Shown one piece after another: positions 6,349 to 42,463 of a stretch of 64,000 bases of DNA. The position numbers and the translations under genes are program-made. Each line of letters opens with the position of its first letter. Positions within the stretch are counted from its first letter, which is position 1. The notes beneath the pieces are model-generated. The model saw nothing but the letters and a program-made list of their open reading frames with translations. It had not been told where the DNA came from and did not search any database. The DNA is from Saprospiraceae bacterium (lineage in GTDB: Bacteria; Bacteroidota; Bacteroidia; Chitinophagales; Saprospiraceae). Where the stretch lies: NCBI GenBank assembly GCA_027488935.1, contig JAIYAP010000061.1, forward strand, positions 1 through 64,000. Reading direction: 5' to 3'.

Positions 6349-6459
6349 AATGGTCCAGTATTATAGCACCCAACCTTTATTTACCAATTCTCGTAGTATA
6401 AACAATCCGGCACAAAATGCCTGAAACCCAGTTTATCTTTTATCAAATTGAAACAAACC

Positions 6460-10700: not shown

Positions 10701-12472
10701 TTTACAATTGGATTTTGCAAGGTAGAAATAAAGCCATTGGGGCCGGTCCAGCTAAATCCAGGTGCAGTTGCATTGGTTGTTGTTTGAATAACCACCTGTG
10801 GGTCCGTACACGTATAAGTGCCTCCACCAACTGTAACAGCAGGTGGTGTAGTTAATGCGATCACACTGGTGGTTGAACTGGTGGTACAGCCATTGATGTT
10901 GTTTGTTACCCGTAATCGGTAGGTACCGGGTGCATTTACGATGGGCTTCAAGGTCGTGGAGCCCGAAACGATATTCCCGCCATTGGTCGCAGTCCAGAAA
11001 TACGAATATTGACTACCAACAGAGCCGGAACCTTGCAATTGCACTTCAAGTTTGGTGCAGGTAAGCACTTGCGGCGGACCAGCACTTGCTTGGGGTACAT
11101 TCAAATCGGATGGTACAAATACCGTGGCCGTGTCATAACAAGTTTTTCCGCCTTGTGCACGTGTGAGTACAAGTGAATATTCGCCCGAAGCTGTTGCAAC
11201 CGCCGTATTGGTGTTACTGATTACTTGTCCGGCGCTATTGAACCACTGGTACAAGACCCCGTTTCCAACCGTTGATCCCACACTGGTAAGCACTACACTT
11301 GCTTTAGCACAAGTAATGGTGTCCGGTTGTTGTACGACGGCTTTAATCGGGATTACAATCGTCGTAAAGTTTACAATACTATCGCAACCTTCAAACGAGG
11401 TGAGCACTTCCTGGTTGGTGCCGTTTTCGCAATATTCAAACCCATTGATGCTAAAACATTCTCCTTCGCAGAGGTAAACTGGCGGCAAGTTTTTTACATT
11501 TAAAGGCAAAACCCGTACTTTTTGCCGCACAATACTATCACAACCCAGGTAAGAAAGGTAAGGCGAAGACGTTAATATATAGGTGCCGGGCACCGCCAAC
11601 ACCGGATGCGGTTCTTCGGGCCATTCGTACGGCACTTGCGAAAAACAAACCACACTTTCTTCCAATACATTAATTGCTAAAGGTGTATTGGCAACAGCCA
11701 AACAGCGGGTAACCGGTGCGCTACAAGCATTGGATGCTGTAACACAAACATTTCCACCTGCAGTAGCAAAAGTGATATCTACTGCATTGCCATTGGTAGC
11801 AGGTAAAATCAAGACATTGCCTGCGCCATTAATTTTTGCACCAAACGGGGCTGTCCAGGTATAAGAAACAGCATTGGCAACCGGCGGAATTGAGTACTGC
11901 GTGGTGCCATTTGGACAAACCTGCGATAATCCTACCAAAACACCCACAGGGCCCAGGGGCAATGGCGTAACAGAACCAACTGGTACCGTGATCGTATAAT
12001 TACAAATATCTCCATTCAAACCATCTAAAAGCAGCTGATAAGGTGCTCCAACGGTCAGATTATTTAAAGTAAGACTGAAACCACCCACGCCACCACCGCC
12101 TGGATTTGGCCCCGCCGCGCATGCAACCGGCAAATTACAATCCGTTAGGACCGCAGCTTGCAAGCCATCGCCCCCTTGACAACTTAAGTATTCAATTCCA
12201 ATGACCACCGTGGATGTACCTGCAATAAAGCCATACCAACGTGGATTTTCAAGCACAATCGATCCTAAACAAAGCGAAACATTCGTGCCATTTGGCAAAA
12301 ACTGGTCGTTGGTATCGGTAAATCCATCTAAATCACAATAGATGCAAGACTGGGTGCATCGTATCGCTCCCGGAGGTGTTGGGGAACCACAGGAAAAAAG
12401 GTTTTGTGCACTTAATTGTCCAACTAAGACGAAAAAAAGGCAGCAAAACAAAAATGGAATCGTTTTTTTCAT
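7778..12472 (-). CDS. Giant secreted SprB/HYR-repeat surface protein, T9SS type-A sorting domain
   Basis: The protein has 1564 residues. The start MKKTIPFLF at 12472 gives a clean signal peptide ending QLSAQ; the frame extends upstream but without signal-like sequence. Domains in order: a cysteine-containing N-terminal module (about 24-260) that also occurs in the gene at 54739; an array of Ig/PKD-like segments (about 350-790); SprB-type repeats of the form YTYAWSN...GTYTVTITD...C (about 790-1230); an HYR-like region (about 1238-1400) with VSDNC and CPQSI; and a type-A T9SS sorting domain from about 1485 (VYPNPTTGLL...AAGMYSLLI...KVVLSK). It is expected to be exported by T9SS and anchored at the cell surface as an adhesin. 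It is transcribed alone. Confidence 0.9.
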   Translation of the reverse strand: MKKTIPFLFCCLFFVLVGQLSAQNLFSCGSPTPPGAIRCTQSCIYCDLDGFTDTNDQFLPNGTNVSLCLGSIVLENPRWYGFIAGTSTVVIGIEYLSCQGGDGLQAAVLTDCNLPVACAAGPNPGGGGVGGFSLTLNNLTVGAPYQLLLDGLNGDICNYTITVPVGSVTPLPLGPVGVLVGLSQVCPNGTTQYSIPPVANAVSYTWTAPFGAKINGAGNVLILPATNGNAVDITFATAGGNVCVTASNACSAPVTRCLAVANTPLAINVLEESVVCFSQVPYEWPEEPHPVLAVPGTYILTSSPYLSYLGCDSIVRQKVRVLPLNVKNLPPVYLCEGECFSINGFEYCENGTNQEVLTSFEGCDSIVNFTTIVIPIKAVVQQPDTITCAKASVVLTSVGSTVGNGVLYQWFNSAGQVISNTNTAVATASGEYSLVLTRAQGGKTCYDTATVFVPSDLNVPQASAGPPQVLTCTKLEVQLQGSGSVGSQYSYFWTATNGGNIVSGSTTLKPIVNAPGTYRLRVTNNINGCTTSSTTSVIALTTPPAVTVGGGTYTCTDPQVVIQTTTNATAPGFSWTGPNGFISTLQNPIVNQEGSYFLTVTDGVTGCTATRTAVVIANNNPPGATATSGSITCVVQSVTLNGVSPTNGSSFLWTGPNGFNSAIANPIAATPGVYNLLVTGTNGCTSTATTTLALNTTAPGAVLTPSGNLNCNNATINLIAASTANPANLNHVFIRPNGVQDTTGTVGLLVVNAAGAYIVQVTNTVNGCVSQDTASVIQYSAVLATLSGQTNNACFGDNTGGITASAAGGNGTYTYAWSNSGNTAVINNLAGGTYTVTITDGENCTSTAVATITEPAILVCNASATPQTANGLADGTASAAPSGGTPAYTYQWNTLATTATITGLLPGFYTVTVTDGNGCTKAQTISVSQYDCAVQGTIQQANVRCFGNANGSASVTLTGGNTPYTYAWSNGASTSFVSNLGPDTYTVTVTDANNCPVLLSFTISEPDTLVANVSATGASGPNTNNGTATANPSGGSGVYSYLWNNGITTAAQDSLAGGIYTVTVFDSNGCSDIQTVEVEVGNCNLLTSFLTVNPACFGTTEGQATIVLTGGANPFNFQWSSGDTTATADNLAAGDYLISVTDNNGCQIVDSVTIVQPNELSLSVDTVINTVCTNSPLGVAGVQPNGGTGIVTIQWSNNQTGLLAVNLVAGTYTAVATDENGCTAETSAEVIAVDTQSPVIVVDTVDVPLGPSGNVTLTIQNLNANVSDNCAVGNVAISPNSFNCTQLGLHTVFLVATDNSGNTSSASAVVNIVDNSAPVLICPQSIIRCFGNTLVQYNAPTATDNCLGFGGGFALVQGLPSGSIFPLGTTLTTYAYTDGQGNVGSCSFEVTILTPLSVSIDSVYNDIENTQVGRINMDITGSLSPYTYQWFKNGQPIALDTEDLTGLGVGTYTVIVTDANGCSATSNPATVISVVGTETPSWTQQVGVYPNPTTGLLTIALPDNLSGKDLQLAVYDLTGRKLMAVQSTVQNQFNLDLHKLAAGMYSLLIQVDGVQMMRKVVLSK

Positions 12473-12604
12473 AATTCGGTTAAAAAGTGGATGAAAGTGA
12501 ATTGCAGCGCGCTTGCTCAAAGTTTTGTTTGGGCTCAAAACTACAAAGGAGCAATGTACATGAAACAAGCGACTGACGTGCATGCGACAAACAACATGCC
12601 AGAA

Positions 12605-12640
12605 CAAAGGTAAAAAATATAAATTGGTATAAAAATACCA
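12605..12640. promoter_or_regulatory. Divergent promoter/operator region
   Basis: The 325-base gap between the divergent SprB-repeat gene and the sensor-regulator gene contains, on the minus strand, TACCTTTG (12605-12612), matching the Bacteroidota -7 box TAnnTTTG. A perfect inverted repeat TGGTAT-AAAA-ATACCA lies at 12625-12640. On the plus strand the same stretch has TTG, 19 bases, then TACTTTG. The palindrome would overlap both promoters and could bind a shared regulator. No -33 TTG is seen for the minus-strand promoter. Confidence 0.4.
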
Positions 12641-12797
12641 GTTGGTACTTTGCGGATGCCCGGGTCTCACTGTCGCGCCCTACCGCTTTCGAACGACTTT
12701 ATTTTTTTGTTGTTTTGCACAAAAAAGTCACTTCTGCATAAGCATTCCGGCCAATTCTCAGATTTTTCCGTTCTTTATCCCCAAATTAAACCTAGTT

Positions 12798-15542
12798 GTG
12801 CGGTTAAAAGCCTTCCTTTTTTACTTCATATGCCTTTACGGTTGTTGCAGCGGCTACTTTTTACGTGCGCAGGCGCTCCCACGTGTGCGCAATTTTACAC
12901 CGTTCGAATACAATGCCCAGGCCCAAAACTGGTCACTTAGTCAATCGGGGAAGGACGGCTGGTTGTATTTTGCCAACAATGGCGGTCTGTTGGAGTTCGA
13001 TGGTGCACGTTGGCAATCCTATGTTTTACCGCAAAAACAAACCGTGCGCGCGGTCGCCGTTGGGGCCGATCAACGCATTTATGGGGGCGGTTTTGCCGAA
13101 TTTGGCTGGTGGCAAAAAGATCCAACAGGTAATCTTCAGTACCAGTCTTTGAGTCAACATGTACAGGCAACCCACCTTTTAAAAGAAGAAATCTGGCATA
13201 TCCTCGCCTTGCCCAATCAAGTACTATTTCAGTCTTTTTCTACCATATACCGCTATGATTTTCAAAAAATTACGGTAATCAATCCGCCAGGAGCGATCAT
13301 GTTTTTACAACAAGTGGATGGGCGCTTACTCTTTCAAGTAATTGGACGCGGGATTTTCGAATTGCTGCCCGACGATCGTTTCGAACTGCTGGAAGGCACC
13401 GAAGTCATCGCTGATAAAATCATCCAGTTTATTGTGTCGGATGGTGCCGGTGGGTTATTGATCGGGGCAACAAATGAAGGGATCTGGACGTATCAAGATA
13501 AAAAAATAAGTCCTTGGAAAAATCCACTCAATGCTGATTTCAAACGGTACCAACTAAATAAGGCACAACGGATGCACGATGGCAGCCTTGCAATTGGTAC
13601 TATTTTGAACGGCCTATACCTCCTTGAACCCAACGGGCAATTGCGCTACCACCTCAACCGGGAGTCCGGATTACAGAATAATACAGTACTGGCCTTGCAT
13701 GAAGACCGGGATCACAACCTGTGGCTCGGGCTGGACAGGGGGATTGATTTTGTTGAAATTAACTCGCCCATCACATATTTCAGTGATAATTCGGGCAAAA
13801 TTGGGGCCTTGTATTCGGCAGCATTGTTTCAAAACCGCTTGTATGTGGGGAGCAATCAAGGTGTATTTGTAAAAAATGCAAGCCAGTCTTTTACCCTGAT
13901 TAATGGTACACAAGGGCAAGTATGGCAATTGCAAGCATTTGGCAATCAATTAATTTGCGGACATAACAGCGGGACATTTCTACTCAAGGACAATCTTGCG
14001 CGCAAAATATCATCGATCACCGGCGGTTGGTGTACCCTGCCTGTACCTGGCCGTTCGGATGCCCTCTTACAAAGCACATACACCGGACTGATTGTACTCA
14101 AAAAAGGCCCCGATGGCACCTGGTCGTTTGCCCACCGCCTGGAAGGATTCGGGGAACCACTCCGCAAAATTGTATTCGATGAACAAGGCTATTTGTGGGG
14201 CGCGCATCCCAACCGCGGCGTGTACCGTTTGCGCTTGTCGGACGATTTAAAAAAAGTATCCGAACAAAAAAACTACACCACGGCCGACGGATTGCCCTCC
14301 GATTTTAAAACCGACTTGCTTTTACTGGATAATCAATTGATTGTCAACCCTGAAAGCGCCCCCAGGGCCGTTCGTTACAATACGGGAAAGGTTCAGTTTG
14401 AAACGCTGCCCGACACTTTGCAAGCGCATAAATTGCTGCCTGGCAAAGACGGCGATTATTTTAAATTATTCAAAGCGCGCATCATGCTCCAAAGCAACGC
14501 GCAACAATATTGGTTTCCGATCGCGCTGGTGGAGGGGTATGAAAATATTTTGGGACTGAACGACCAAACCTATTTATTTTGTCAGGAAAACGGTTTCGCA
14601 CTGCTGGATAAAACCCGCCTGGTGCCAGGTCAAACCTTTTACAAAACCCGACCAATGGTGCGCAGCCTGGAAGCAGGGGATGTGTCCATACAACTAGATT
14701 CGAACCGGGCAAAAGGGCCAATTCCTTTCCGCCTGAATGATTTGCGCTTTCGGTTTGCTGCCCCGATTTATGGATATGCTCCTAAATTTAGCTGGAAATT
14801 GGAAGGTTTTTCTGACCATTGGTCGGAGTGGCAAACCGTGCCGGAAAAAGAATTTACCAATTTGCCGCCTGGCGATTATGTATTTTGGTTGCGCACCGAC
14901 CTTTCTGAAGTAGAAAGCCCGTTTTATTTCACCATAAAGCCACCTTGGTACCGCACCGTCTGGGCCTGGATCATCTACGCCTGCCTTGCGTTGGGATTGT
15001 TGTATTTATTTGAAAAAATCAATTTGCGGCGATTGGCCATCCAACGCAATCAGTTAGAAGCCGAAAAAGCACGCGATTTATCCCAACAACGCACGGCCGC
15101 CGAGCGGGAAATGCTTAGCCTGGAACTCGACAATAAAAGCCGCGAACTTTCGAATGCCGCGCTCGGATTAATTCGGAAAAACGAAATTTTACTGAAAATA
15201 AAAGACGACCTGTTGGCTTCAAAGGGCGATCCCCGTGCCATCGATAAATTATCGCGGCTCATAGACAGTCATGTAGAAAGTGACCACGACTGGGAAATCT
15301 TTGAGGCATCGTTTAATCAGGTGCATGATGACTTCTTCAAACGACTCATGCTTGAATACCAGGACCTAACGCCCGGGGACCTGCGCCTGGCCGCTTACCT
15401 GAAAATGAACCTGGCTTCAAAGGAAATTGCACCGCTCCTCAATATCTCCGTACGGGGGGTGGAAAACAAAAGATACCGCCTGCGCAAGAAGTTAGGCCTG
15501 CCGGAAGAGGCGAATTTGACCGAATTTATGATGAATTATTAA
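12798..15542 (+). CDS. Membrane-spanning sensor-regulator: beta-propeller, Y_Y_Y domain, LuxR-type HTH
   Basis: The protein has 914 residues from the GTG at 12798, which gives a signal-anchor start (VRLKAFLFYFICLYG). There is no ATG in a sensible position, so the start is uncertain. Residues about 35-640 hold two-component-regulator-type propeller repeats (LYFANNGGLLEFDG, HEDRDHNLWLGLDRGI). A Y_Y_Y-like domain follows, with FSWKLEGFSDHWSEW. One membrane helix is at about 720-742, then a coiled coil, and a LuxR-type HTH at about 856-905 (LKMNLASKEIAPLLNIS). No histidine-kinase or receiver domain is present, so it should act as a one-component regulator that binds a periplasmic ligand and DNA. 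It heads the glycan locus and probably controls it. Confidence 0.85.
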   Translation: MRLKAFLFYFICLYGCCSGYFLRAQALPRVRNFTPFEYNAQAQNWSLSQSGKDGWLYFANNGGLLEFDGARWQSYVLPQKQTVRAVAVGADQRIYGGGFAEFGWWQKDPTGNLQYQSLSQHVQATHLLKEEIWHILALPNQVLFQSFSTIYRYDFQKITVINPPGAIMFLQQVDGRLLFQVIGRGIFELLPDDRFELLEGTEVIADKIIQFIVSDGAGGLLIGATNEGIWTYQDKKISPWKNPLNADFKRYQLNKAQRMHDGSLAIGTILNGLYLLEPNGQLRYHLNRESGLQNNTVLALHEDRDHNLWLGLDRGIDFVEINSPITYFSDNSGKIGALYSAALFQNRLYVGSNQGVFVKNASQSFTLINGTQGQVWQLQAFGNQLICGHNSGTFLLKDNLARKISSITGGWCTLPVPGRSDALLQSTYTGLIVLKKGPDGTWSFAHRLEGFGEPLRKIVFDEQGYLWGAHPNRGVYRLRLSDDLKKVSEQKNYTTADGLPSDFKTDLLLLDNQLIVNPESAPRAVRYNTGKVQFETLPDTLQAHKLLPGKDGDYFKLFKARIMLQSNAQQYWFPIALVEGYENILGLNDQTYLFCQENGFALLDKTRLVPGQTFYKTRPMVRSLEAGDVSIQLDSNRAKGPIPFRLNDLRFRFAAPIYGYAPKFSWKLEGFSDHWSEWQTVPEKEFTNLPPGDYVFWLRTDLSEVESPFYFTIKPPWYRTVWAWIIYACLALGLLYLFEKINLRRLAIQRNQLEAEKARDLSQQRTAAEREMLSLELDNKSRELSNAALGLIRKNEILLKIKDDLLASKGDPRAIDKLSRLIDSHVESDHDWEIFEASFNQVHDDFFKRLMLEYQDLTPGDLRLAAYLKMNLASKEIAPLLNISVRGVENKRYRLRKKLGLPEEANLTEFMMNY

Positions 15543-15727
15543 AATTTACGCGTGGCGTAGTTTTGGTGAGGTGTATTTTTGCTTTTAAAACAGGTATTTG
15601 TCGTAATTTCATCCTGCGATTCATTGCGTTTACCGAATTATTGAACAAAAACTAAAAGTCAACGCAAACGCAAGCAGGGGTATAATGCCGTACCAATGTA
15701 TTGCGCAGCAACGCAGCCATTCGAACA

Positions 15728-17563
15728 ATGTTGAAACCAATCCTACCAATTCTGATCTGTTGGGCAAGCATAAGTTTGCTTCCGGCCCAAGTACCGCAAG
15801 GGGTACTGGCCAATGCCTTTGAATGTCATATAGATGTACAGTGGAGCACCGTGCCCAACGCCAACGGGTACAAAGTGTACCGTTCGGATGCATTTAATAA
15901 TACCTACACGTTATTAAAGCAAACCACCAGTACCACCATAACCGATTGGATTTGCGACGAAGGCCCCGCCCTTACCCGCAACTATAAAGTAAGTTCTATC
16001 AGCAGTTCCGGGGTAGAAAGTGCCACCTCCGAAATGGTTAGCGCTACCACAGCACCCATGGGCGACAGCGCCTTGCTTGATATGGTACAGCGCGCAACGT
16101 TCCGATATTTTTGGGACTTTGGCCATCCGACCAGTGGTATGGCCCGCGAACGCAGCAATGGCAACAACAATACTGTCACAACAGGCGGCACCGGATTTGG
16201 GGTAATGTCGATCCTGGTTGCCTGCGAGCGCGGCTGGATTACGCGTACGGAAGCCCTGAACAGAGTAGTGCAAATTGCTTCTTTTTTGCAGTTTGCCGAC
16301 CGCTTTCACGGTGTATTTCCGCATTGGATGCATGGCGGAACAGGAAAAGTGCAGCCTTTTAGTCAATATGATAATGGAGGCGATTTGGTGGAAACCGCTT
16401 TTCTGATGCAGGGATTACTCACCGCAAGGGCTTATTTTGACCAAAACACGCCCCTCGAAAATGGCCTGCGTTCCATCCTGACCAGTTTATGGGAAGAAGT
16501 GGAATGGGACTGGTACCGTAAAAATAATAGTCCGGTGCTGTATTGGCATTGGTCGCCCAATTACGGCTGGCAAATGAACTTCCCCTTGCGCGGATTTTAT
16601 GAAGCACAAATTGTGTACATCCTTGCAGTTGCATCGCCTACCCATCCGGTACCGGGCAGTTTGTATCAAAGCGGCTGGACATCCAGCAATTACGCCAATT
16701 TTTCCTCCTATTATGGCTACCCTATTTATTGTGGCCCTTATGGCGGTGGACCCATGTTTTTTGCGCATTATTCATACCTAGGTTTTGATCCGCGCAATAT
16801 AAAAGATGCTTACTGCAATTATTTTGTACGCAACCGCAACCATGCGCTAATCCAGCAACGATATTCCATCCTGAACCCGGAAAACCATCAGGGGTATTCA
16901 GCGGCTTGTTGGGGCCTGACTTCCAGCGATGACCCGATATCGGGTTATGCAGCCCACGATTTGTTCCCCAGCAATGATAATGGCACCATTGCGCCCACTG
17001 CAGCACTTGCCTCCATGCCTTATACACCCAATGAAAGCATGGAGGCCTTGAAGTACTTTTATCGCACACAAGGCGCTAAATTGTGGGGGTCGTATGGTTT
17101 TTACGACGCGTTCAACCTGGATCAAAATTGGGTTGCATCGTCCTATTTAGCCATCGATCAGGGGCCAATTGTGGATATGATCGAGAATTACCGCACCGGA
17201 CTGTTGTGGCGGTATTTTATGCAAAACCCTGAAATTCAGCCTGCCTTAACTGCGGTTGGATTTAAGCCCGACCTGATTGCTGCCCAGGAATTGGAATCTA
17301 CAGAATTGCTTTCCGTATTTCCGGTTCCGGCTTCCGCAGGTAGTATCTTGACGATTAATTGGCAGGGTGACAAACTGGAGCCATGCCAGGCGAGTATCGC
17401 GGATATGACAGGCCGAACTATTCAAAGGGTATGGAAGGATAAAAACCTCACAAGCACCCAAAACGTTGAAATTCAGCTGCCCCTTGGGTTATCAGCCGGC
17501 GTTTATTACCTGGTACTAACACACAAAACAGGTAAAAACTACAAAAAAATCATCGTTTTGTAA
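15728..17563 (+). CDS. Secreted glycoside hydrolase, GH144-like (endo-beta-1,2-glucanase family), T9SS type-A
   Basis: The protein has 611 residues from the ATG at 15728; the frame also opens at TTG 15701. The signal peptide ends SLLPAQ. A fibronectin-III-like segment (about 30-105) is followed by the PF10091-type alpha/alpha-barrel (about 110-515), with ATFRYFWDFGHPTSGMARER, TVTTGGTGFGVM, GVFPHWMHGGTGK, DNGGDLVETAFLMQGLL and IDQGPIVDMIENYRTG. These strings fit the GH144 family, whose characterised members cleave beta-1,2-glucan. A type-A sorting domain starts near 528, so the enzyme should be surface-exposed or released. It is the first enzyme of the probable glucan locus. Confidence 0.85.
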   Translation: MLKPILPILICWASISLLPAQVPQGVLANAFECHIDVQWSTVPNANGYKVYRSDAFNNTYTLLKQTTSTTITDWICDEGPALTRNYKVSSISSSGVESATSEMVSATTAPMGDSALLDMVQRATFRYFWDFGHPTSGMARERSNGNNNTVTTGGTGFGVMSILVACERGWITRTEALNRVVQIASFLQFADRFHGVFPHWMHGGTGKVQPFSQYDNGGDLVETAFLMQGLLTARAYFDQNTPLENGLRSILTSLWEEVEWDWYRKNNSPVLYWHWSPNYGWQMNFPLRGFYEAQIVYILAVASPTHPVPGSLYQSGWTSSNYANFSSYYGYPIYCGPYGGGPMFFAHYSYLGFDPRNIKDAYCNYFVRNRNHALIQQRYSILNPENHQGYSAACWGLTSSDDPISGYAAHDLFPSNDNGTIAPTAALASMPYTPNESMEALKYFYRTQGAKLWGSYGFYDAFNLDQNWVASSYLAIDQGPIVDMIENYRTGLLWRYFMQNPEIQPALTAVGFKPDLIAAQELESTELLSVFPVPASAGSILTINWQGDKLEPCQASIADMTGRTIQRVWKDKNLTSTQNVEIQLPLGLSAGVYYLVLTHKTGKNYKKIIVL

Positions 17564-17662
17564 CCCCAGCACCTACTCAATCCAACCGAAATTGAACTCA
17601 AAGAGGCCCAGCCTCGTCACCATTTTACTAACTTTCACCAACCTTTTTTAATTGAAGCAAAT

Positions 17663-20600
17663 ATGAAAAAAATTCTCCTGGCACTCCTGTTTATCACAGC
17701 AGGTTTCTTCGGACTCAACGCACAAGTTGTGTATGAAGACTTCGAAGGCGGTACATCCGACCTTCCATGGGCTGCGGCCGATGGCGTATACAATGGCGTA
17801 ATTCCCAACCCAGGTCCTGATGCCGTGAATGGCAGTGGATTTGTAGGTTCCTATACCAAAGCCGCTGGCTTCGGCTACAGCCTTTTCTGGGTACCAAGTT
17901 TGGCCCAGCCACTCGATCTTTCGGTGAATAACCAATTTCACCTGAAAGTATGGTGCTCAACGGCAACACCAATCCTGCTCAAATTTGAAGGCCCCGGTCA
18001 GGCAGTTGAGAAACTAGTGACCATGCCTGCTGCTGGACAGTGGGTTGATTTGAAATTTGATATGAGCGCGGGCGCCGATAAAACGGGCTTGACGAAAATC
18101 ATCATTTTCTTCGATCCGGGCAATGACCCAAGCAACAACACCTATTATTTCGACGATTTGGTAGCGGAAAAAGCAGGTGTTTGTTACGAAACATTCGAAG
18201 GTGGCCAAGCATTACCTTGGAATGGTGCCGATGGCTTGTACGAAGGTGCTGTTGCCAACCCAACGCCGAATTCAATCAACAGCAGCGCAACCGTAGGTAA
18301 GTACACCAAAAGCAATATGCATGAATACAGTTTGTTGTTGGCGGATCAAGGTACACCATTCGACCTTTCTGTTAATAACCAATTCAAAATGAAGGTATTG
18401 GCCGAAGCGCCAACCCAGGTTTTGTTGAAATTGGAAGGTGGCGGCCAAGGCATCGAGCGCATCCAAAACATCGGTGTAGCGGGTGCATGGCAAGAGTACA
18501 CTTTCGATTTTAGTGCTGCAGCAGGTTTTACCGGTCTGACCAAAGTGATCATTTTCTTCGATCCAGGTGTTTTGACTAGCGGCAATGTATACTATTTCGA
18601 TGACATCTGCGCCGTTCCAAATCCATGTCCAGGCGTTGTTTCCAATCCTGATATCCTGGATGATTTTGAATGTCAGCGCAAAGCAACGTATGCTGGCGAC
18701 TGGGCGGCCCTTTCGGTGGTAAACAACCCGGCACCAAGCGGCGACAACAATTCGTCTAAAGTAGGCCGTTGGGAAGATCCAAGCGGAAACGGTACCGAGT
18801 TTTCTAACTTCCAGTTGGACTACCAAAACCCGATCGACCTGTCTGTGCGCAATCAATTCAGCATGAAACTTTGGGCACCAAAAGCAGGTCGCTTGTTATT
18901 GAAAATTGAAGGTGGCGTATCTGCGAAAGAAATTGAAGTGCAGGTTACCGAACTCAACAAATGGGTAGAGTACAAAGCCGATTTTAGCGCAGAAGCAGGT
19001 GAAGGCCACAAAAAAATCGTGGTATTCATCAATGCATTTGTCAATGGCGAACCAGGTGATGTGTATTTTGTAGACGATATCAAATTGACAGCGCCACCGA
19101 TCGCACCACCTTTGGAAGACTTTGAAGGCGCACCAAGCCTTGGATGGCAACCATTGGATCAAAACGAAGCCGTGCATGGCACCTTCGCCGTAGGTCCAAA
19201 CAGCAAACCAAACGATGTAAACAACTCAGCAACAGCAGGTTGTTACAGCAAAGGTCCATCCGGTTTCTCTACGTTGCAGGCAATTTCCCTGACCAACTTT
19301 GATTTGAGCATTTACCCACAGTTCAATATTGACGTTTTGAGCCCGGCAGCAGGTGGAAAAGTAACCATGATCCTTAGTGGCCCAACCGGCAACCAACAAG
19401 TGGAAGCAAATGTAACCACGCCTGGCGTTTGGGAAACCTTGAGTTTCGACTTTTCTACGTTCTCCAGTACCACCGATTTCAACGAAGTACGCATGATTTT
19501 CAATGCAGGTACTGCAGCAGCAGGCGAAACCTGGTGTGTAGACAACCTCCGCCAAGGTGCTTCTACTGTTGATCCATGTGCCGATGTGGTTCCAAAACCA
19601 AACATCATTGATGACTTCGAATGCCAACGCAACTACACCGCTATTTTCTATGGCACCGACGACGTTAAAGTGGTAAACAACCCGTATTTGTTGCCATCAA
19701 ACGGTTCTTTGAAAGTAGGTGAATACAAAGATCCTGCTGGTCAGCCATACGCAGGCATCGGCTTCGAATTCCCAACTGCACCTGATTTGAGCGTGTACAA
19801 CCAATTGAAAGTGTCTGTGTATTCAACCAAAGCCAATGTGCCTTTCCTCTTCAAACTGGAAGGTGGCACAACCGGTAATGTTGAAAAATTTGACACCCTG
19901 GAAACGGCCAATACCTGGTATGAATTTACCATCGACTTCAGTGGCTCGGTCGGTACAGACAACAAAAAACTGATCCTTTTCTTTGATGTAGCAAGCGACA
20001 ATGGTGGCACTTATTGGGTAGATAATGTGAAATGGAGCCGCAAAGCCTACACTGGCTGCGTAAGCGACCACGAAACAGCATTGACCTCCCTGAGCAATTT
20101 CACTTATTTCAACAACGGCTCCCTAGCTGGTACGATTGCAGCAATTGTAGACAATCCGAACAAATCAGGCATCAATACCAGCGATAAAGTAGGTAAAATG
20201 GTGCAAGCAGCAGATGCTACTATTTATGCAGGTATGTTCGCTGATTTGGATTCAGAAATTGACTTTGGTGGTAAAAAAGAAATCAAAGGCAAGTTCCACA
20301 TGGACCACTTGGGTACCGTTACCATGAAAATTGAGGTATTTGGCAACCCAGTTCCTCCAATTGAAGTAACGGTTCCAAACACCAAAGTGAACGAATGGGA
20401 AGAAATCACCTTCAACTTTGGCGCATACGTGGATGGCGACAAATACTTCCGTTTGACGATGTTCCCGGACATCACCAGCGTAGGTACTGGTACTGATCGG
20501 GTTACGTATTATGATGATATCGTGATCGGTAACGGTCAGTGTGGCCTTATCGCGACCAACAACCCGCGTATTGAAAACCTGTTGGTATCGCCAAATCCTG

Positions 20601-20809
20601 CTACAGCATTGTTCCGTATCCAAAACCTGGGCAACATCGATCGTTTCGAAGTGTTCAACCTCCTGGGCCAACGGATCGCTTCCATCAATACCAATGGTGA
20701 TCAGCAAGTAGAACTAGATGTAACACGCTTCGCAGCAGGCATGTACACCGTTTCTGGTTTTAACAGCCAAAATCAATTGGTTGGAAACGCCAAGTTTGTA
20801 AAACAGTAA
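17663..20809 (+). CDS. Secreted multi-module glycan-binding-like protein, six repeats, T9SS type-A
   Basis: The protein has 1048 residues. After a signal peptide (ending GLNAQ) it has six modules of about 150 residues. Each begins with a DFE or FEG motif, carries NPxPxxxNxSxxVGxYxK, then LDLSVNNQFxxKV, LLKxEG, and ends in a YYFDD-like strand; this is the pattern of jelly-roll carbohydrate-binding modules in Bacteroidota. A type-A sorting domain starts at about 973. It lies between the two PF10091 enzymes and is probably the surface binding protein of the locus, replacing a SusD-like component. Codons are strongly biased (TTC, AAC, GAC, GGT, GCA), unlike the neighbours, which suggests high expression. 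Confidence 0.8.
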   Translation: MKKILLALLFITAGFFGLNAQVVYEDFEGGTSDLPWAAADGVYNGVIPNPGPDAVNGSGFVGSYTKAAGFGYSLFWVPSLAQPLDLSVNNQFHLKVWCSTATPILLKFEGPGQAVEKLVTMPAAGQWVDLKFDMSAGADKTGLTKIIIFFDPGNDPSNNTYYFDDLVAEKAGVCYETFEGGQALPWNGADGLYEGAVANPTPNSINSSATVGKYTKSNMHEYSLLLADQGTPFDLSVNNQFKMKVLAEAPTQVLLKLEGGGQGIERIQNIGVAGAWQEYTFDFSAAAGFTGLTKVIIFFDPGVLTSGNVYYFDDICAVPNPCPGVVSNPDILDDFECQRKATYAGDWAALSVVNNPAPSGDNNSSKVGRWEDPSGNGTEFSNFQLDYQNPIDLSVRNQFSMKLWAPKAGRLLLKIEGGVSAKEIEVQVTELNKWVEYKADFSAEAGEGHKKIVVFINAFVNGEPGDVYFVDDIKLTAPPIAPPLEDFEGAPSLGWQPLDQNEAVHGTFAVGPNSKPNDVNNSATAGCYSKGPSGFSTLQAISLTNFDLSIYPQFNIDVLSPAAGGKVTMILSGPTGNQQVEANVTTPGVWETLSFDFSTFSSTTDFNEVRMIFNAGTAAAGETWCVDNLRQGASTVDPCADVVPKPNIIDDFECQRNYTAIFYGTDDVKVVNNPYLLPSNGSLKVGEYKDPAGQPYAGIGFEFPTAPDLSVYNQLKVSVYSTKANVPFLFKLEGGTTGNVEKFDTLETANTWYEFTIDFSGSVGTDNKKLILFFDVASDNGGTYWVDNVKWSRKAYTGCVSDHETALTSLSNFTYFNNGSLAGTIAAIVDNPNKSGINTSDKVGKMVQAADATIYAGMFADLDSEIDFGGKKEIKGKFHMDHLGTVTMKIEVFGNPVPPIEVTVPNTKVNEWEEITFNFGAYVDGDKYFRLTMFPDITSVGTGTDRVTYYDDIVIGNGQCGLIATNNPRIENLLVSPNPATALFRIQNLGNIDRFEVFNLLGQRIASINTNGDQQVELDVTRFAAGMYTVSGFNSQNQLVGNAKFVKQ

Positions 20810-20835
20810 ACAGGTTATACCTCACTGATTTTGAA

Positions 20836-20897
20836 TAAAATAGCGGGCGTACAAGGCAATGAAAACGTCTTATTGGCTTGTATTGCCCGCTATTTTT
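20836..20897 (+). terminator. Long-stem intrinsic terminator
   Basis: AAAATAGCGGGC followed by GTACAAGGCAAT pairs with ATTGGCTTGTATT followed by GCCCGCTATTTTT, with a loop of about 11 bases and a T-rich tail. It separates the glycan-binding gene from the next enzyme. Because it extends to 20897, it argues that translation of the next gene starts at 20936 and not further upstream. Confidence 0.85.
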
Positions 20898-20935
20898 ATT
20901 TGTTTTACCTCTACCAGCTCTACGAGCATTTCATT

Positions 20936-23179
20936 ATGGTACGCAGCCTGCAAGTCTCCTTGCTCCTTTTGTGGAGCATTGCTTTCCATTCCGTTTCAGC
21001 ACAACCTCGCACGGCGCAGATCACGCAGCCCACGGCTGAAAAGGTGACTTTTTCGATTGATACCCTCGAAAAACGAACATTTAACTACTTCTGGCAATTG
21101 GCCGACCGTCAGTTGCAAATACCCGACCGCTGGCCGACCCTTGCGTTTTCAAGTGTGGCCGCTACCGGCTTTGGGCTCAGTGCTTACCTGGTAGGGATTG
21201 AACGCAAGTATGTTACCCGCGCACAAGCAGCCGAAAGGGTACTTAAAACCCTCGAAATACTCAAAAATTTGCCGCAAGGACCTGCCCTATCCGGCATGTC
21301 GGGCTATCGCGGCTTCTATTACCATTTCCTCGACCATCAAGAAGCACGCCGTTACCGTGATGTAGAACTTTCTTCCATCGATTCGGGCTTGTTGATGGCA
21401 GGCGTTTTGTCCTGCCAAACCTATTTTGATCAGGAAAATGCCACCGAAAAAGCCATCCGGGCTACCGCCGATTTTATTTACCGCCGGGTAGAATGGGACT
21501 GGATGATGAATGCCAACCAGCGCATGAGTATGGGCTGGAAACCAGAAAAAGGCTTTATTCAGGCCGAATGGTTTGGATACACAGAAGCCATGATCCTGTA
21601 TGTATTGGGACTAGGATCACCCACCCACCCCATCGCTTCCAATGCCTGGGAAGCCTGGACCCAAAATTATGTTTGGGATAATTTCATGGGACAAGAACAC
21701 ATCAATTTTGGCCCACTTTTCGGACACCAATACAGCCATATCTGGCTCGATTTTAAGGGCATTCAGGATGAATACATGCGCAAAAAAGGCATGGATTATG
21801 CCGAAAACACCCGGCGGGCAACCTTGGCTAACTGGAATTATTGCAAACAAAACCCGGGTAAATTCAAAGATTATTCCGATAAAATATGGGGCCTCACCGC
21901 TTGTGATGGTCCGGCCGACTGGCTTTACAAACACGATCCCAAGGAGCAATGCCCGGAGGATCGCAAAAAATACATGGGTTACAGCGCACGCGGCATCGCC
22001 ACCGATTACCTCACCGACGATGGTACCCTTGCACCTACCGCAGCAGGCGGATCGCTGCCTTTTGCTCCTGAAATTTGCCTACCTGCCCTCGAAGCCATGT
22101 GGAATCAATACCAGGATAGCCTCGTGGGGCCTTATGGTTTTAAAGATGCGTTCAATCCAGGTTTTACGGCTTGCGGACAACTACCTAAGGGCTGGTTTGA
22201 CAATGATTACCTAGGCATCGACCAAGGTCCGATTGTCTTGATGATTGAAAATTACCGCAGTGGTTTTTTGTGGAATTTGATGAAACGCAACCCGTATATC
22301 CGAAAAGGACTACAAAAAGCAGGATTTGACGGAGGCTGGCTTGGAAAACGCGCCGATGTGCAAGTGGAATATGGCGAACAAACCGTTCCAAATCCAGAAG
22401 TACCCACCAACCCATTTTATTATTTCGACCGCGCCGTGTACCGTGAAAGCGAAAGTCTGGCACTCCCGTATCGGCTCCTAAAGCCATCCAATGTGCTGGC
22501 AACCAACAAAATAGAAAATTTCTATTTTAACAAAGACGGACATATAACGGGTAACACATCAGAAACAAAATACAAGGAAAAGAAAATCCCCTTGGTGGTG
22601 TTTTTACATGGCTCCGGTGAACGGGGCAGCGAAAATGAGGCACAACTTCGAAATGGGGTACTTGCCTTTTGCGAACCCAATAATTGGGCACAAAACCCGT
22701 GTTTTATACTAGCGCCTCAGTGTCCACTCAACGATCAATGGACCAAAAACCGGGCGAAACCATTTCAGGAAAACCCAACGGAGGCAACCCGCATGTTATT
22801 GGCCCTGATTGATCAGGTTTTAGCCGAAAATCCAGCCATTGACCCTACCCGCATTTACCTCACCGGTTTGTCGATGGGCGGTTTTGGCACCTTTGATGTG
22901 CTTTGTCGTCGACCCAATTTATTTGCAGCGGCCATTGCCTTGTGTTCGGGCGGTGACCCGGCAGTTGCACCAAAAATAAAGGATGTTCCACTCTGGTATT
23001 TTCATGGTACGCGCGACGAAACGGTGCCCGTTGAAAACACCCGCCAAATGGTCGCAGCCCTTAAAAATGCAGGATCAAAGGTTAAATACACTGAGTTTGC
23101 CACCTTAGGCCATGCGATCTGGCAGGAAACCTATTATAACCCAGAAGTGCTGTCGTGGCTTTTCCGTCAACACAAATAA
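20936..23179 (+). CDS. Fusion of a glycoamylase-like (PF10091) hydrolase and an alpha/beta-hydrolase esterase
   Basis: The protein has 747 residues. ATG 20936 gives a signal peptide ending HSVSAQ. The N-terminal domain (about 44-470) is a PF10091-type alpha/alpha-barrel, with KRTFNYFWQLADRQ, AATGFGLSAYLVGIERKYV, GYRGFYYHFLD, ELSSIDSGLLMAGVL and IDQGPIVLMIENYRSG. It is related to, but distinct from, the GH144 enzyme upstream. The C-terminal domain (about 548-745) is an esterase with oxyanion HGSGERG and a catalytic triad of Ser646 (GLSMGG), Asp694 and His726. There is no sorting domain, so it is probably periplasmic. The fusion suggests that one enzyme both cleaves and de-esterifies a substituted glucan. 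Confidence 0.85.
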   Translation: MVRSLQVSLLLLWSIAFHSVSAQPRTAQITQPTAEKVTFSIDTLEKRTFNYFWQLADRQLQIPDRWPTLAFSSVAATGFGLSAYLVGIERKYVTRAQAAERVLKTLEILKNLPQGPALSGMSGYRGFYYHFLDHQEARRYRDVELSSIDSGLLMAGVLSCQTYFDQENATEKAIRATADFIYRRVEWDWMMNANQRMSMGWKPEKGFIQAEWFGYTEAMILYVLGLGSPTHPIASNAWEAWTQNYVWDNFMGQEHINFGPLFGHQYSHIWLDFKGIQDEYMRKKGMDYAENTRRATLANWNYCKQNPGKFKDYSDKIWGLTACDGPADWLYKHDPKEQCPEDRKKYMGYSARGIATDYLTDDGTLAPTAAGGSLPFAPEICLPALEAMWNQYQDSLVGPYGFKDAFNPGFTACGQLPKGWFDNDYLGIDQGPIVLMIENYRSGFLWNLMKRNPYIRKGLQKAGFDGGWLGKRADVQVEYGEQTVPNPEVPTNPFYYFDRAVYRESESLALPYRLLKPSNVLATNKIENFYFNKDGHITGNTSETKYKEKKIPLVVFLHGSGERGSENEAQLRNGVLAFCEPNNWAQNPCFILAPQCPLNDQWTKNRAKPFQENPTEATRMLLALIDQVLAENPAIDPTRIYLTGLSMGGFGTFDVLCRRPNLFAAAIALCSGGDPAVAPKIKDVPLWYFHGTRDETVPVENTRQMVAALKNAGSKVKYTEFATLGHAIWQETYYNPEVLSWLFRQHK

Positions 23180-23226
23180 GCCCGCAGTCCGTTTTTCATT
23201 CATATCCGATTCAAATACAAGCATTT

Positions 23227-25458
23227 ATGCAACATCTTCTAAAATCCACTGCAGTAGTGCTTTGCCTGCTTCTGTCGATGAGCCTACAAGCGCAAACCAA
23301 ACCCGCCAAAACAAAACCGAAACCAACAGGCGATCCCCGCATTGAAAAACTGCTGGCTAAAATGACCCTGGAAGAAAAAATAGGTCAAATGACCCTGTAC
23401 ACCACCGACTGGGAATCAACAGGCCCCACCATTCGGGATGGATACAAAAATGATATTCGCAGCGGCAATTGCGGTGCCTTATTTAACAGCCACACCGTGC
23501 CTTTTACCCGCGAATTACAACGCATTGCCGTAGAAGAAACCCGCCTGAAAATACCACTTTTGTTTGGATACGATGTGATCCACGGATATAAAACCATTTT
23601 TCCAATACCCTTGGGCGAGGCTGCCAGCTGGGATCTGGATGCGATAGAGCGCAGTGCCCGGATCGCCGCTACAGAGGCCGCAGCCTCGGGTTTGCACTGG
23701 ACTTTTGCGCCCATGGTCGATATTGGCCGCGACCCACGCTGGGGTCGAGTAATGGAGGGTGCTGGTGAAGATACCTACCTCGGTTGTCGCATTGCGGAAG
23801 CAAGGGTACGCGGATTTCAGGGCAAAGGCATTGGCAATACCGATGCGGTGATCGCCTGCGTAAAACACTACGCCGCTTACGGTGCACCCATCGGTGGCCG
23901 CGATTACAACACGGTGGATATGAGCGAGCGCTTTTTCCGGGAATACTACCTGCCGCCCTACAAAGCAGCGGTTAAAGCAGGCGCTATGACGGTAATGGCT
24001 TCCTTCAATGATTATGATGGCGTGCCTGCCACGGGCAATAAATACTTGTTGCAACACATTTTGCGCGATGAATGGGCATTCAAAGGTTTTGTGGTTACCG
24101 ATTACACGGGCATCAATGAAATGGTGAAGCACGGCGTAGTTGCAGATGATAAAGCTGCGGGCGAACTCGCCGTAAAGGCAGGCATTGATATGGATATGCA
24201 AGGTGCTGTATATCAACATTTTTTAGCACAATCTGTAAAAGAAGGAAAGGTAAAAATGGCTCAAATTGATGAAGCCGTACGACGTATCCTGGCGCTAAAA
24301 TTCCAATTGGGCTTATTTGAAGATCCATACAAATTTAGTAATGCGCAACGTGCCCAGGCAACCATTTTAAGCCCTGAAAACCGCGCCGCAGCCCGTGATG
24401 TCGCCCGCAAGAGCATGGTTTTGTTAAAAAATGCCAATCAGGTATTGCCGCTTAATAAACAACAAAAAATTGCACTGATCGGCCCCTTGGCGGAAACCAA
24501 AAACGACCTGATCGGTAACTGGTCTGGCGCAGGCAGTGGCGCCGATTGCGTAAGCCTGCTGGAAGGTCTGCAAAATGCTGGCATGAAACCAGTCGCCGTG
24601 GCCAAAGGTTGTGCCATCGACAGTGAAGACCAATCGGGATTTAAAGCCGCCCTCGATGCAGCGGCACAAGCCGATGTGGTTGTATTGGCCATTGGCGAAC
24701 GCGCGGATATGTCGGGGGAAGCCGCGTCACGGGCCTATATTACCGTTCCAGGCGCCCAAGAGGCCTTGCTGACCGCGCTAAAAGCAACCGGCAAACCCGT
24801 GGTTGTGGTGCTGATGAATGGCCGCCCATTGACCATCCCCAACATTGATCGGCAGGCCGATGCCATCCTCGAAACCTGGTGGTCGGGCACAGAAGCAGGC
24901 AATGCCATCGCTGATGTATTGAGTGGTGCCTACAACCCTTCTGGCAAATTGACCATGAGTTTCCCCCGTACAACCGGACAAATACCCGTGTATTACAACC
25001 ATAAAAGCGCTGGTCGGCCTTTTGATCCAAATTCAAAATGGACCACCAAGTACATTGATGAAGCCAACGCACCGTTATATGCTTTTGGGTATGGCTTGAG
25101 TTATACCTCTTTTAAATATGGCGTACCCACGGCCAGCAAAACCGCGTTTAAAAAAGGCGAAAGCATCGTCATTTCGGTAGAATTGACAAATACCGGCAAT
25201 GTGGACGGCGAGGAAGTAGCACAATTGTACATCCACGATTTGGTAGGCTCCGTCACCCGTCCTGTACGCGAACTCAAGGCCTTTCAAAAGGTGATGTTGC
25301 GCAAAGGGGAGACCCAAACGCTCACATTTACCTTATCGGACAAGGATTTCAGTTTTTTCAAGCAAAATATGAAGTTTGGCAGCGAGCCCGGCGACTTTGA
25401 AATAACGGTGGGTGGAAATTCGGATACGGAAAACGTTGTCCGGGTAAGTTTAAAATAG
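23227..25458 (+). CDS. GH3 beta-glucosidase (BglX-like)
   Basis: The protein has 743 residues from ATG 23227 (MQHLLKSTAVV), with a signal peptide ending SLQAQ. It is a complete GH3 enzyme: an N-terminal TIM barrel with RWGRVMEGAGEDTYL, VIACVKHYAAYGAP and the nucleophile Asp292 in FVVTDYTG; a middle alpha/beta sandwich with MVLLKNANQVLPL; and a C-terminal fibronectin-III-like domain with FGYGLSYTSF. It should remove terminal glucose from oligosaccharides in the periplasm. It is the last gene of the probable beta-glucan locus. GH3 partners of GH144 enzymes act on sophoro-oligosaccharides in other Bacteroidota, so that substrate is a plausible inference. Confidence 0.95.
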   Translation: MQHLLKSTAVVLCLLLSMSLQAQTKPAKTKPKPTGDPRIEKLLAKMTLEEKIGQMTLYTTDWESTGPTIRDGYKNDIRSGNCGALFNSHTVPFTRELQRIAVEETRLKIPLLFGYDVIHGYKTIFPIPLGEAASWDLDAIERSARIAATEAAASGLHWTFAPMVDIGRDPRWGRVMEGAGEDTYLGCRIAEARVRGFQGKGIGNTDAVIACVKHYAAYGAPIGGRDYNTVDMSERFFREYYLPPYKAAVKAGAMTVMASFNDYDGVPATGNKYLLQHILRDEWAFKGFVVTDYTGINEMVKHGVVADDKAAGELAVKAGIDMDMQGAVYQHFLAQSVKEGKVKMAQIDEAVRRILALKFQLGLFEDPYKFSNAQRAQATILSPENRAAARDVARKSMVLLKNANQVLPLNKQQKIALIGPLAETKNDLIGNWSGAGSGADCVSLLEGLQNAGMKPVAVAKGCAIDSEDQSGFKAALDAAAQADVVVLAIGERADMSGEAASRAYITVPGAQEALLTALKATGKPVVVVLMNGRPLTIPNIDRQADAILETWWSGTEAGNAIADVLSGAYNPSGKLTMSFPRTTGQIPVYYNHKSAGRPFDPNSKWTTKYIDEANAPLYAFGYGLSYTSFKYGVPTASKTAFKKGESIVISVELTNTGNVDGEEVAQLYIHDLVGSVTRPVRELKAFQKVMLRKGETQTLTFTLSDKDFSFFKQNMKFGSEPGDFEITVGGNSDTENVVRVSLK

Positions 25459-25722: not shown

Positions 25723-26409
25723 ATGTTTCGAAAACACATCATTAAAGTACTCGCCCTTTTAGTTTTTTTCGCCTTTGCCACCGAACCAACGTATGCGCAA
25801 AGCCGTAAAAAATCAAGTTCCAGCCTCAGTAAGAAAAAAAAGAAGAAAGCCGCTGCTAAGAAAAAGAAAGAAAAAGAAAAGGCTAAAGCAGCAGAGGCAG
25901 AAGAAGAAAGTAAACCGTCCACTACGTTCACCGACCATTTGTGGTACGGAGGTGGCGTTGGTTTGGGCTTCAGTTCCTCATTTGGAGTCAACTCGTTTGG
26001 AATATCCGTTTCGCCGATGGTTGGATATAAAGTGAATAACTGGGTTTCTGCCGGTCCGCGTATCTCTACTGCATTCAGTTCTTTAAAAATCCCAGGTTAC
26101 AAATCAATTAATTTGTTCAACTTTGAAGCGGGCGGTTTTATACGTGCGCATGTGTACGAAGGATTTTTCCTGCAGGGTGAAATATCCAACGAATGGATTC
26201 AGGAGCCGGGTGATGCCGTCGGGAATGAGTACAGCAAAAATACCCGCAGTCGATTTAATCAATATCTGGGAGCGGGTTATAATTTTGGTCGCGGCCAAGG
26301 TGGGGTCGGTTCCGAAATAAGCATCCACTATAATTTTACGGTAGGACGAGATATCAACTCTTTTGAAAATCCGTTTAACTATCGCTTCGGATTTACCTGG
26401 CGTTTCTAA
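25723..26409 (+). CDS. Outer-membrane beta-barrel protein with a lysine-rich N-terminal segment
   Basis: The protein has 228 residues. The signal peptide ends EPTYAQ, and is followed by a highly basic then acidic low-complexity stretch (about 27-63, mostly Lys, Ala, Glu). The rest alternates hydrophobic and polar residues as in a small eight-stranded barrel (GGGVGLGFSSSFGVNSFG; SPMVGYKVNNWVSAGPRIS) and ends in the aromatic FGFTWRF, the usual C-terminal signature for outer-membrane insertion. The charged stretch probably sits in the periplasm. The function is unknown. It is transcribed alone and ends at a recurrent hairpin. Confidence 0.75.
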   Translation: MFRKHIIKVLALLVFFAFATEPTYAQSRKKSSSSLSKKKKKKAAAKKKKEKEKAKAAEAEEESKPSTTFTDHLWYGGGVGLGFSSSFGVNSFGISVSPMVGYKVNNWVSAGPRISTAFSSLKIPGYKSINLFNFEAGGFIRAHVYEGFFLQGEISNEWIQEPGDAVGNEYSKNTRSRFNQYLGAGYNFGRGQGGVGSEISIHYNFTVGRDINSFENPFNYRFGFTWRF

Positions 26410-30406: not shown

Positions 30407-30596
30407 TTATTGCAGAAATTGTAAAAAACGATGAAAATCTAGGTGCAAGGAGTACATAACAAGAAATAAAGCAGCATGTTTCAATGTTAAATGTGCGAGG
30501 CAGCAAAAAGATTGGTGGAAGTATCCGGTCTTTTGTCTTTTTTTGCAATGAAAAGCCAACACACGGCACGCGTTGTTACAACCACTAATCGATACA

Positions 30597-42413: not shown

Positions 42414-42463
42414 CCGTTATCTTTTGTAACAGCTTCTTTAAAATCGTGTTCAAGCACCCAAAT

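Follow-up and report, generated by a model that had tools for sequence, protein, structure and literature searches.

How would a bacterium take up beta-1,2-glucan oligosaccharides if the genes for the importer do not lie beside those for the enzymes? The question is raised by a five-gene locus of a Saprospiraceae bacterium (assembly GCA_027488935.1), which we studied in the first 64,000 nucleotides of contig JAIYAP010000061.1 (hereafter the window, part of contig C57 of genome G000; 6.28 Mb in 88 contigs). The host lineage is a genus of uncultured Saprospiraceae. An initial annotation, made from the sequence, had described a beta-1,2-glucan degradation locus led by a membrane-tethered regulator and lacking any SusC/SusD (SusCD) system. 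Our results support the first description and not the second. The locus would be an ordinary beta-1,2-glucan polysaccharide utilization locus (PUL), split by relocation of its SusCD pair and probably still co-regulated with it, a reading to which we assign a probability of roughly 0.8.

An orthologous SusC/SusD pair on another contig

All five open reading frames (ORFs) were confirmed on one strand at the positions initially annotated, in the order REG, GH144A, BIND, GH144B-esterase and GH3. Together with two upstream motifs, and with type IX secretion system (T9SS) tails on two of the products, they are as follows:

12798..15542, + strand: REG, predicted periplasmic propeller and Y_Y_Y sensor, one transmembrane segment, cytoplasmic coiled coil and LuxR-like helix-turn-helix (Pfam; transmembrane segment and coiled coil by eye)
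15554..15571, + strand: candidate operator GGCGTAGTTTTGGTGAGG, an imperfect tandem repeat TGGnG... with an 11-bp period (repeat read by eye)
15604..15609, + strand: TAATTT box, exactly 32 bp after the operator (a spacing common to 12 of 18 sites)
15728..17563, + strand: GH144A (P0002), signal peptide, Fn3-like stretch, GH144 domain and T9SS type A tail (Pfam, PDB matches)
17663..20809, + strand: BIND (P0003), six homologous modules of ~150-170 aa each and a T9SS tail (module self-alignment, Pfam)
20936..23179, + strand: GH144B-esterase (P0004), signal peptide, XcSGL-like GH144 domain (~40-470) and serine esterase (~545-747) (PDB matches)
23227..25458, + strand: GH3, BglX-type beta-glucosidase with signal peptide (Pfam, NCBIfam, PDB matches)

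The gaps between GH144A and BIND, BIND and the ATG of GH144B-esterase, and GH144B-esterase and the ATG of GH3 are 99, 126 and 47 bp.

The adjacent susC and susD genes by which a PUL is canonically recognized are absent from the window locus. Searches of the whole genome with TIGR04056 for SusC and PF07980 for SusD found ten SusC above cut-off and seven SusD, none of them inside the window; on the window's contig, the closest of these SusC lies ~92 kb away. The window has 39 ORFs of 110 aa or more, none of them SusC- or SusD-like, and tblastn with a locus SusC or SusD gave no match there, which rejects loss of the pair with a remnant left after GH3.

Related loci indicate where the pair belongs. 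The gene order typical of the genus is REG - GH144A - BIND - GH144B-esterase - GH3 - SusC - SusD, and SusC follows GH3 in 13 of 18 within-genus loci compared (L087-L092, L094-L096, L098, L099, L102 and L103, among L084-L099, L102 and L103), with both SusC and SusD seen in L091, L092, L094-L096, L102 and L103. There is no SusC in the continuation of L084, L085 and L097; the contig of L086 ends just past GH3 and its SusC begins at another contig's edge; L093 is a lone GH144B. SusC also follows GH3 in six further genus loci (L143, L144, L147-L150).

Searching G000 with the locus SusC of G025 (P0007) identified C71:42355-45276 at 63% identity, the next own paralog reaching 41%. This SusC is followed by SusD, and Pfam confirms both. 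In a tree of 53 SusC sequences (including nine own paralogs and one further gene of G021), built by a quick method with Shimodaira-Hasegawa-like approximate likelihood ratio test (SH-aLRT) values as the sole support, the C71 gene groups with its counterparts in G023 and G004 in a single clade (SH-aLRT 100) that falls within the locus-linked SusCs. The genome-wide searches and this tree reject the absence of SusCD from the genome. The junctions are shared as well: the moved SusC adjoins a 1757-aa gene in G000, where it encodes a PKD/reprolysin protein, and in G004, with a gene of at least 1592 aa in the same place in G023, and a barrel gene follows GH3 in all three genomes (58% identical in G004). 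Given the common clade and junctions, a single SusCD relocation in the ancestor of G000, G023 and G004 is the simplest reading; an assembly artefact is disfavoured as the cause of the split because both junctions are present in three assemblies.

Both halves are maintained, as judged from low dN/dS between G000 and G023: 0.068 for REG, 0.046 for GH144A (454 codons only), 0.023 for BIND, 0.059 for GH144B-esterase and 0.016 for GH3 in the window, and 0.018 (543 codons) and 0.052 for the moved SusC and SusD. For comparison, the neighbouring barrel gene gave 0.179 and RuvB 0.008.

These data bear on the initial idea of a T9SS-only system in which small products pass general porins. Such a system would fit a 64-kb window free of SusCD, the T9SS tails on two proteins and the relative G021, whose GH144B-GH3 genes have no adjacent SusC. 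It is strongly disfavoured for this genome by the orthologous C71 pair, the purifying selection on that pair and the rare upstream element described below, and we regard it as very improbable.

A shared 18-bp element upstream of both halves

An 18-bp block, GGNGTANTNNTGGTGAGG, stands upstream of GH144A in many loci and upstream of the moved SusC in G000 and G004. Its exact sequence occurs at only two sites in the 6.28 Mb of G000: window positions 15554-15571 and C71:42256, where it precedes the relocated SusC. Two exact sites are likewise found in G004, at both locus halves, and three in G023 (before GH144A, before SusC, and at C556:1120 elsewhere), and genomes with an unsplit locus usually contain one. 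Across 18 distinct exact sites in the loci fetched, a TAATTT box follows at 32 bp in 12, including both relocated SusC sites, at 33 bp in one and at 44 bp in one; it was not found at four, two of which are off-target (L153, L154). The box is perhaps part of a -7 promoter element.

We then searched 398 genomes of the family, from 112 genera, for the element with TAATTT at a spacing of 30-34. This combination occurred at 20 sites in 16 genomes, and at none in a reversed control. Thirteen of the 31 genus genomes searched hold 17 of these sites, all at the locus or the moved SusC (two sit in a duplicated contig of G013). The other three, in different genera, are within or next to GH144 loci to the extent that the contigs allow this to be seen. 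In G480 the site is flanked by a REG ortholog (42%) on one side and by an operon of SusC, SusD and two GH144 genes on the other. The G597 site precedes a SusC cut by the contig end, and another contig of that genome carries a GH144 pair and the start of an esterase; the G554 site is 355 bp from a contig end, and on a different contig the GH144A of a full locus starts 119 bp from the end. Both of these are consistent with sites that adjoin GH144 loci.

Two exact off-target sites, G011 C89:119565 and the extra one in G023, were set aside, having neither TAATTT at the spacing nor a locus gene seen beside them, as were one-mismatch sites on C15 and C53 of G000, where nothing matched the locus proteins or SusC/SusD. 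Generic scans were uninformative: sigma-70 promoter-like sites were fewer than in shuffled sequence, and terminator-like sites were near the shuffle mean.

With the same rare element before both, the two halves are probably still switched on together. The C71 pair might instead have been recruited to another substrate after its move and no longer serve the locus. Its neighbours (TyrRS, DUF481 and the PKD/reprolysin protein) do not make up a PUL, although the contig end cuts the view downstream, and this would suit such a recruitment; the retained exact element, which in G000 otherwise stands only before GH144A, and the low dN/dS argue against it and make it improbable.

REG and its association with the element

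REG starts with GTG, a TTG start further upstream being possible. Its Y_Y_Y and Reg_prop matches are slightly above the Pfam cut-off, no kinase domain is listed by Pfam or NCBIfam, and one transmembrane segment was read by eye; we predict a membrane-tethered one-component regulator from these features.

REG is present in 25 of 37 genus genomes, including G000 (49-94% identity in the other 24); the best REG-like match in the remaining 12 is 35% identical at most. Among REG-bearing genomes, the element at the locus is exact in 20, has one mismatch in four (G003, G005, G024 and G032) and two mismatches in G011. The 12 REG-less genomes contain no exact element anywhere, and four have one-mismatch matches that look unlinked. 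GH144 homologs occur in nine of these 12, and G002, G018 and G035 hold GH144A, BIND, GH144B, GH3 and SusC. In G007 and G008, REG is unlinked to the locus and the element stays at GH144A. The dispersed pieces of this PUL thus include SusCD (G000, G004, G023) and the regulator (G007, G008).

The element need not be the REG binding site, and we infer co-regulation from the shared element alone. It could be bound by a different factor or belong to a core promoter, with REG control indirect or absent. Its position at a fixed spacing upstream of a -7-like box would agree with this, as would the weak helix-turn-helix of REG in Pfam and the fact that LuxR-type sites are usually inverted rather than tandem. 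Against it stand the element's presence at the locus with no or one mismatch in 24 of 25 REG genomes, the exact element in 0 of 12 REG-less ones, and its retention at GH144A in the two genomes with an unlinked REG. We consider this alternative unlikely, if less so than the others weighed here. A literature search on an operator of this regulator class, for papers matching at least three of five terms, found none.

Several observations weigh against a relocated yet co-regulated pair under REG. The contigs carrying the moved SusCD end close to or within the pair. In G021 (L097), GH144B-GH3 lacks an adjacent SusC, and no SusC exceeds 45% identity to the locus type, which indicates that outright loss of the pair also happens in the genus. 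Two true loci, L087 and L098, have the element without TAATTT at +32, and the strict TAATTT pattern misses eight of 21 REG-bearing genus genomes (G003, G005, G007, G008, G010, G011, G031 and G032). G011 possesses REG, yet its locus site has two mismatches, its exact site is off-locus and its unlinked GH144B has no element. The correlation of REG with the element may reflect few events, since G002 and G035 hardly differ and a contig end truncates the G018 locus on its upstream side. The GerE/LuxR match of REG is weak (E 0.0056, below the Pfam cut-off).

G021, which has neither REG nor the element, shows a different breakdown of the locus (L097, L151): BIND, GH144A and SusC are not beside GH144B-GH3, a reprolysin-type T9SS protein replaces BIND, and GH144A stands with a different SusCD elsewhere.

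Predicted glucanases, fused esterase and beta-glucosidase

The initial identification of a GH144-like enzyme, a six-module protein, a PF10091-esterase fusion and a GH3 enzyme was borne out by Pfam, PDB matches and module alignment. GH144A carries PF10091 (3e-75) and Por_Secre_tail, the T9SS tail. Its best solved relatives are 4gl3, CpSGL (5gzh) and BDI_3064 (5z06) at ~475-496 bits, XcSGL scoring 177 bits. In the alignment, D215, D219, E222 and E292 correspond to D135, D139, E142 and E211 of CpSGL, and the GH-S clan residues are E292, F344 and Y407, with E222 (CpSGL E142) as the acidic general-base candidate. GH144A is predicted to be a cell-surface beta-1,2-glucanase.

GH144B-esterase combines PF10091 (2.6e-83) with an alpha/beta hydrolase; apart from it and GH144A, no PF10091 protein was found in the genome. 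The best solved match of its GH144 domain is XcSGL (8xul; 486 bits, 1.3e-144), followed by 4gl3 (230 bits). XcSGL residues E239, F286 and Y367 align with E217, F262 and Y349; D149 corresponds to the acidic general-base position (chain numbering of XcSGL differs by 14 from that of the paper). None of these four GH144B residues varies among the 15 aligned sequences. We rejected assignment of this domain to a new family (GH192-194), since the available text of the XcSGL report (PMC12102758) places that best solved match in GH144. By closeness to characterised enzymes and by clan residues, both PF10091 domains belong to GH144. The initial annotation had made its substrate depend on both domains lying within GH144-like clades, and at the sequence level their nearest solved or characterised proteins are indeed GH144. 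Both would act on beta-1,2-glucan.

The C-terminal domain of the fusion best matches the serine esterase 3doh (7.7e-51). S646 and D694 are kept in 14 of 15 aligned sequences and H726 in all 15. In the fused esterase of G004 (L085), GQGMGG replaces GLSMGG, and both the nucleophile serine and the acid residue are gone; this esterase half may therefore be inactive. In six of 20 outgroup loci (L069, L070, L071, L073, L074 and L079, from the same family, order or class), the GH144 genes have a stand-alone esterase next to them (250-261 aa, 34-42% identical), which suggests that the fusion joined two older partners. Succinate can decorate the periplasmic glucans of E. coli, according to the available text of PMC10514313, and the fused esterase may remove ester substituents, such as succinyl groups, from the glucan.

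GH3 has N, C and Fn3-like Pfam domains and is a BglX equivalog by NCBIfam (878.7 bits, cut-off 666). Its PDB matches are 3u48, 5xxl (716 bits) and 4zoa (612 bits), the latter two nearly full-length.

The initial annotation had proposed a T9SS-based system, and this holds for half of the four secreted proteins: GH144A and BIND have a T9SS type A C-terminal domain, and SprA is present in the genome, whereas GH144B-esterase and GH3 have plain signal peptides (by eye) and no such tail. These two are probably periplasmic.

BIND and the predicted substrate

The six modules of BIND are homologous and align to one another, and its sole Pfam match is the T9SS tail. A module alignment of 22 sequences (17 orthologs and five BIND modules) reached a best E of 0.024 against Pfam; as a profile against the PDB, with E up to 5, it gave a single match, 8qx6 (5.8e-12). 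We predict from this architecture that BIND is a surface glycan-binding protein. The 8qx6 structure is a laminarin-binding module, a kinship that would point to another linkage and count against beta-1,2-glucan as the substrate. A literature search aimed at 8qx6 or laminarin-binding modules turned up no paper on 8qx6.

Two observations would thus favour another polymer, be it laminarin or another beta-1,3-glucan, or a beta-1,2-galactan: this sole solved relative of the BIND modules, and a GH144-bearing PUL of B. xylanisolvens that contains a beta-1,2-galactosidase (PMC11739564, available text). On the other side, GH144B has as its closest solved relative XcSGL, a GH144 enzyme that cleaves beta-1,2-glucan and for which, in the text available, no activity on laminarin, lichenan, barley glucan or pustulan was detected (PMC12102758). 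None of the five locus proteins has a sulfatase, GH16, GH17 or GH35 domain according to Pfam, and GH3 is of BglX type, its matches including the 5xxl and Lin1840 structures. We judge another polymer rather unlikely.

Beta-1,2-glucans are made by other bacteria; among them are polymers that serve proteobacteria in osmoregulation and in interaction with hosts. Bacterial glucans, the natural substrate initially proposed, are a reasonable candidate.

Proposed mechanism

What the sequence itself shows is the domain content and catalytic residues, an orthologous and relocated SusCD, the element common to both halves and purifying selection; on these we build a model that would account for substrate, surface or periplasmic location, REG binding, co-expression and the esterase target. 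SusCD would have moved in the ancestor of G000, G023 and G004, with a copy of the promoter element acquired or kept. REG would span the inner membrane, sense periplasmic beta-1,2-gluco-oligosaccharides and bind the 18-bp tandem-repeat operator, 32 bp upstream of TAATTT, at both promoters. The T9SS would export BIND and GH144A to the surface, where BIND may hold the glucan while GH144A cuts it, and the unlinked SusCD would import the oligosaccharides. In the periplasm, GH144B would shorten these, the fused esterase would strip ester groups such as succinyl, and GH3 would release glucose. That a tethered one-component regulator reads a fixed-distance 18-bp tandem operator uniting a dispersed PUL, together with a fusion dedicated to acyl-decorated (e.g., succinylated) beta-1,2-glucans, seems to us reasonably probable.

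Surrounding genes and variation among loci

REG is preceded by an adhesin-like gene (7778-12670) that runs divergently on the - strand. Beyond GH3 come a small gene at 25723-26409, which has no Pfam match and looks barrel-like by eye, and a gene read as RuvB. Very large repetitive surface-type proteins surround the locus (7778-12670 and 30573-34268, both judged by eye, and 42446-46810), the last of which has PKD repeats and a CHU_C tail. The window also contains a serpin-family gene upstream of the locus (PF00079, E 8.2e-83; 6448-7689) and a PorP/SprF gene (38115-39170).

Other loci vary in content. A 538-559-aa gene stands between GH144B and GH3 in L087-L090 (G010, G018, G002 and G035); in L089 its product is a sodium:solute symporter (PF00474, E 5.3e-83) that could import products across the inner membrane. 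In G011 (L093/L194), GH144B-esterase is alone on another contig, away from the locus. Contig C529 of G013 (L095) carries two inverted locus copies with identical scores, probably an assembly artefact.

Comparison with known systems

In sequence, GH3 resembles the beta-glucosidases BT_3567 (5xxl) and Lin1840 (4zoa). Lin1840 has been linked to beta-1,2-glucan metabolism (PMC4757417, available text). The acidic residues of CpSGL (5gzh) are conserved in GH144A, and the alignment with BDI_3064 (5z06) extends to the stretch that precedes the GH144 domain; GH144A differs from both by its T9SS tail. XcSGL (XCC2207, PDB 8XUL, Xanthomonas campestris) aligns with GH144B over its length, with the defining residues conserved, but its C-terminus is, in the text available, a disordered tail (PMC12102758), where the present fusion has an esterase.

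GH144 PULs are abundant in Bacteroidota, marine species having sulfatase-bearing versions, and beta-1,2-glucan is their assigned substrate, as for the present locus, in the available text of Lapebie et al. 2019 (PMC6499787). The outgroup GH144 loci, like the present one, include SusCD, GH144, GH3 and other surface proteins, and some have a REG-like regulator. The present locus differs from GH144 PULs in that its SusCD is unlinked yet tagged by the same element, in its GH144-esterase fusion (a separate gene in the six outgroup loci) and in its six-module T9SS binding protein. A closer parallel for the scattering is found in the dispersed laminarin genes of Maribacter, where SusCD is likewise not adjacent to enzymes of the same pathway (PMC11345257, available text); the present case adds a tree on which the dispersal can be placed, and an upstream element common to the separated parts.

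To our knowledge, within the literature searched, the element, its tagging of unlinked SusCD and the GH144-esterase fusion are new. PUL annotation depends on the adjacency of susC and susD, and 3,317 loci in which the two were not adjacent were put aside in one survey (PMC6499787, available text); in the present case locus and transporter are rejoined by orthology and a shared element. If such an operator does hold dispersed PULs together, searching for it could locate SusCD or enzymes that other orphan loci of the phylum lack. The locus also offers a specific candidate operator for this class of regulator and, in its fusion, a candidate enzyme for decorated beta-1,2-glucans.

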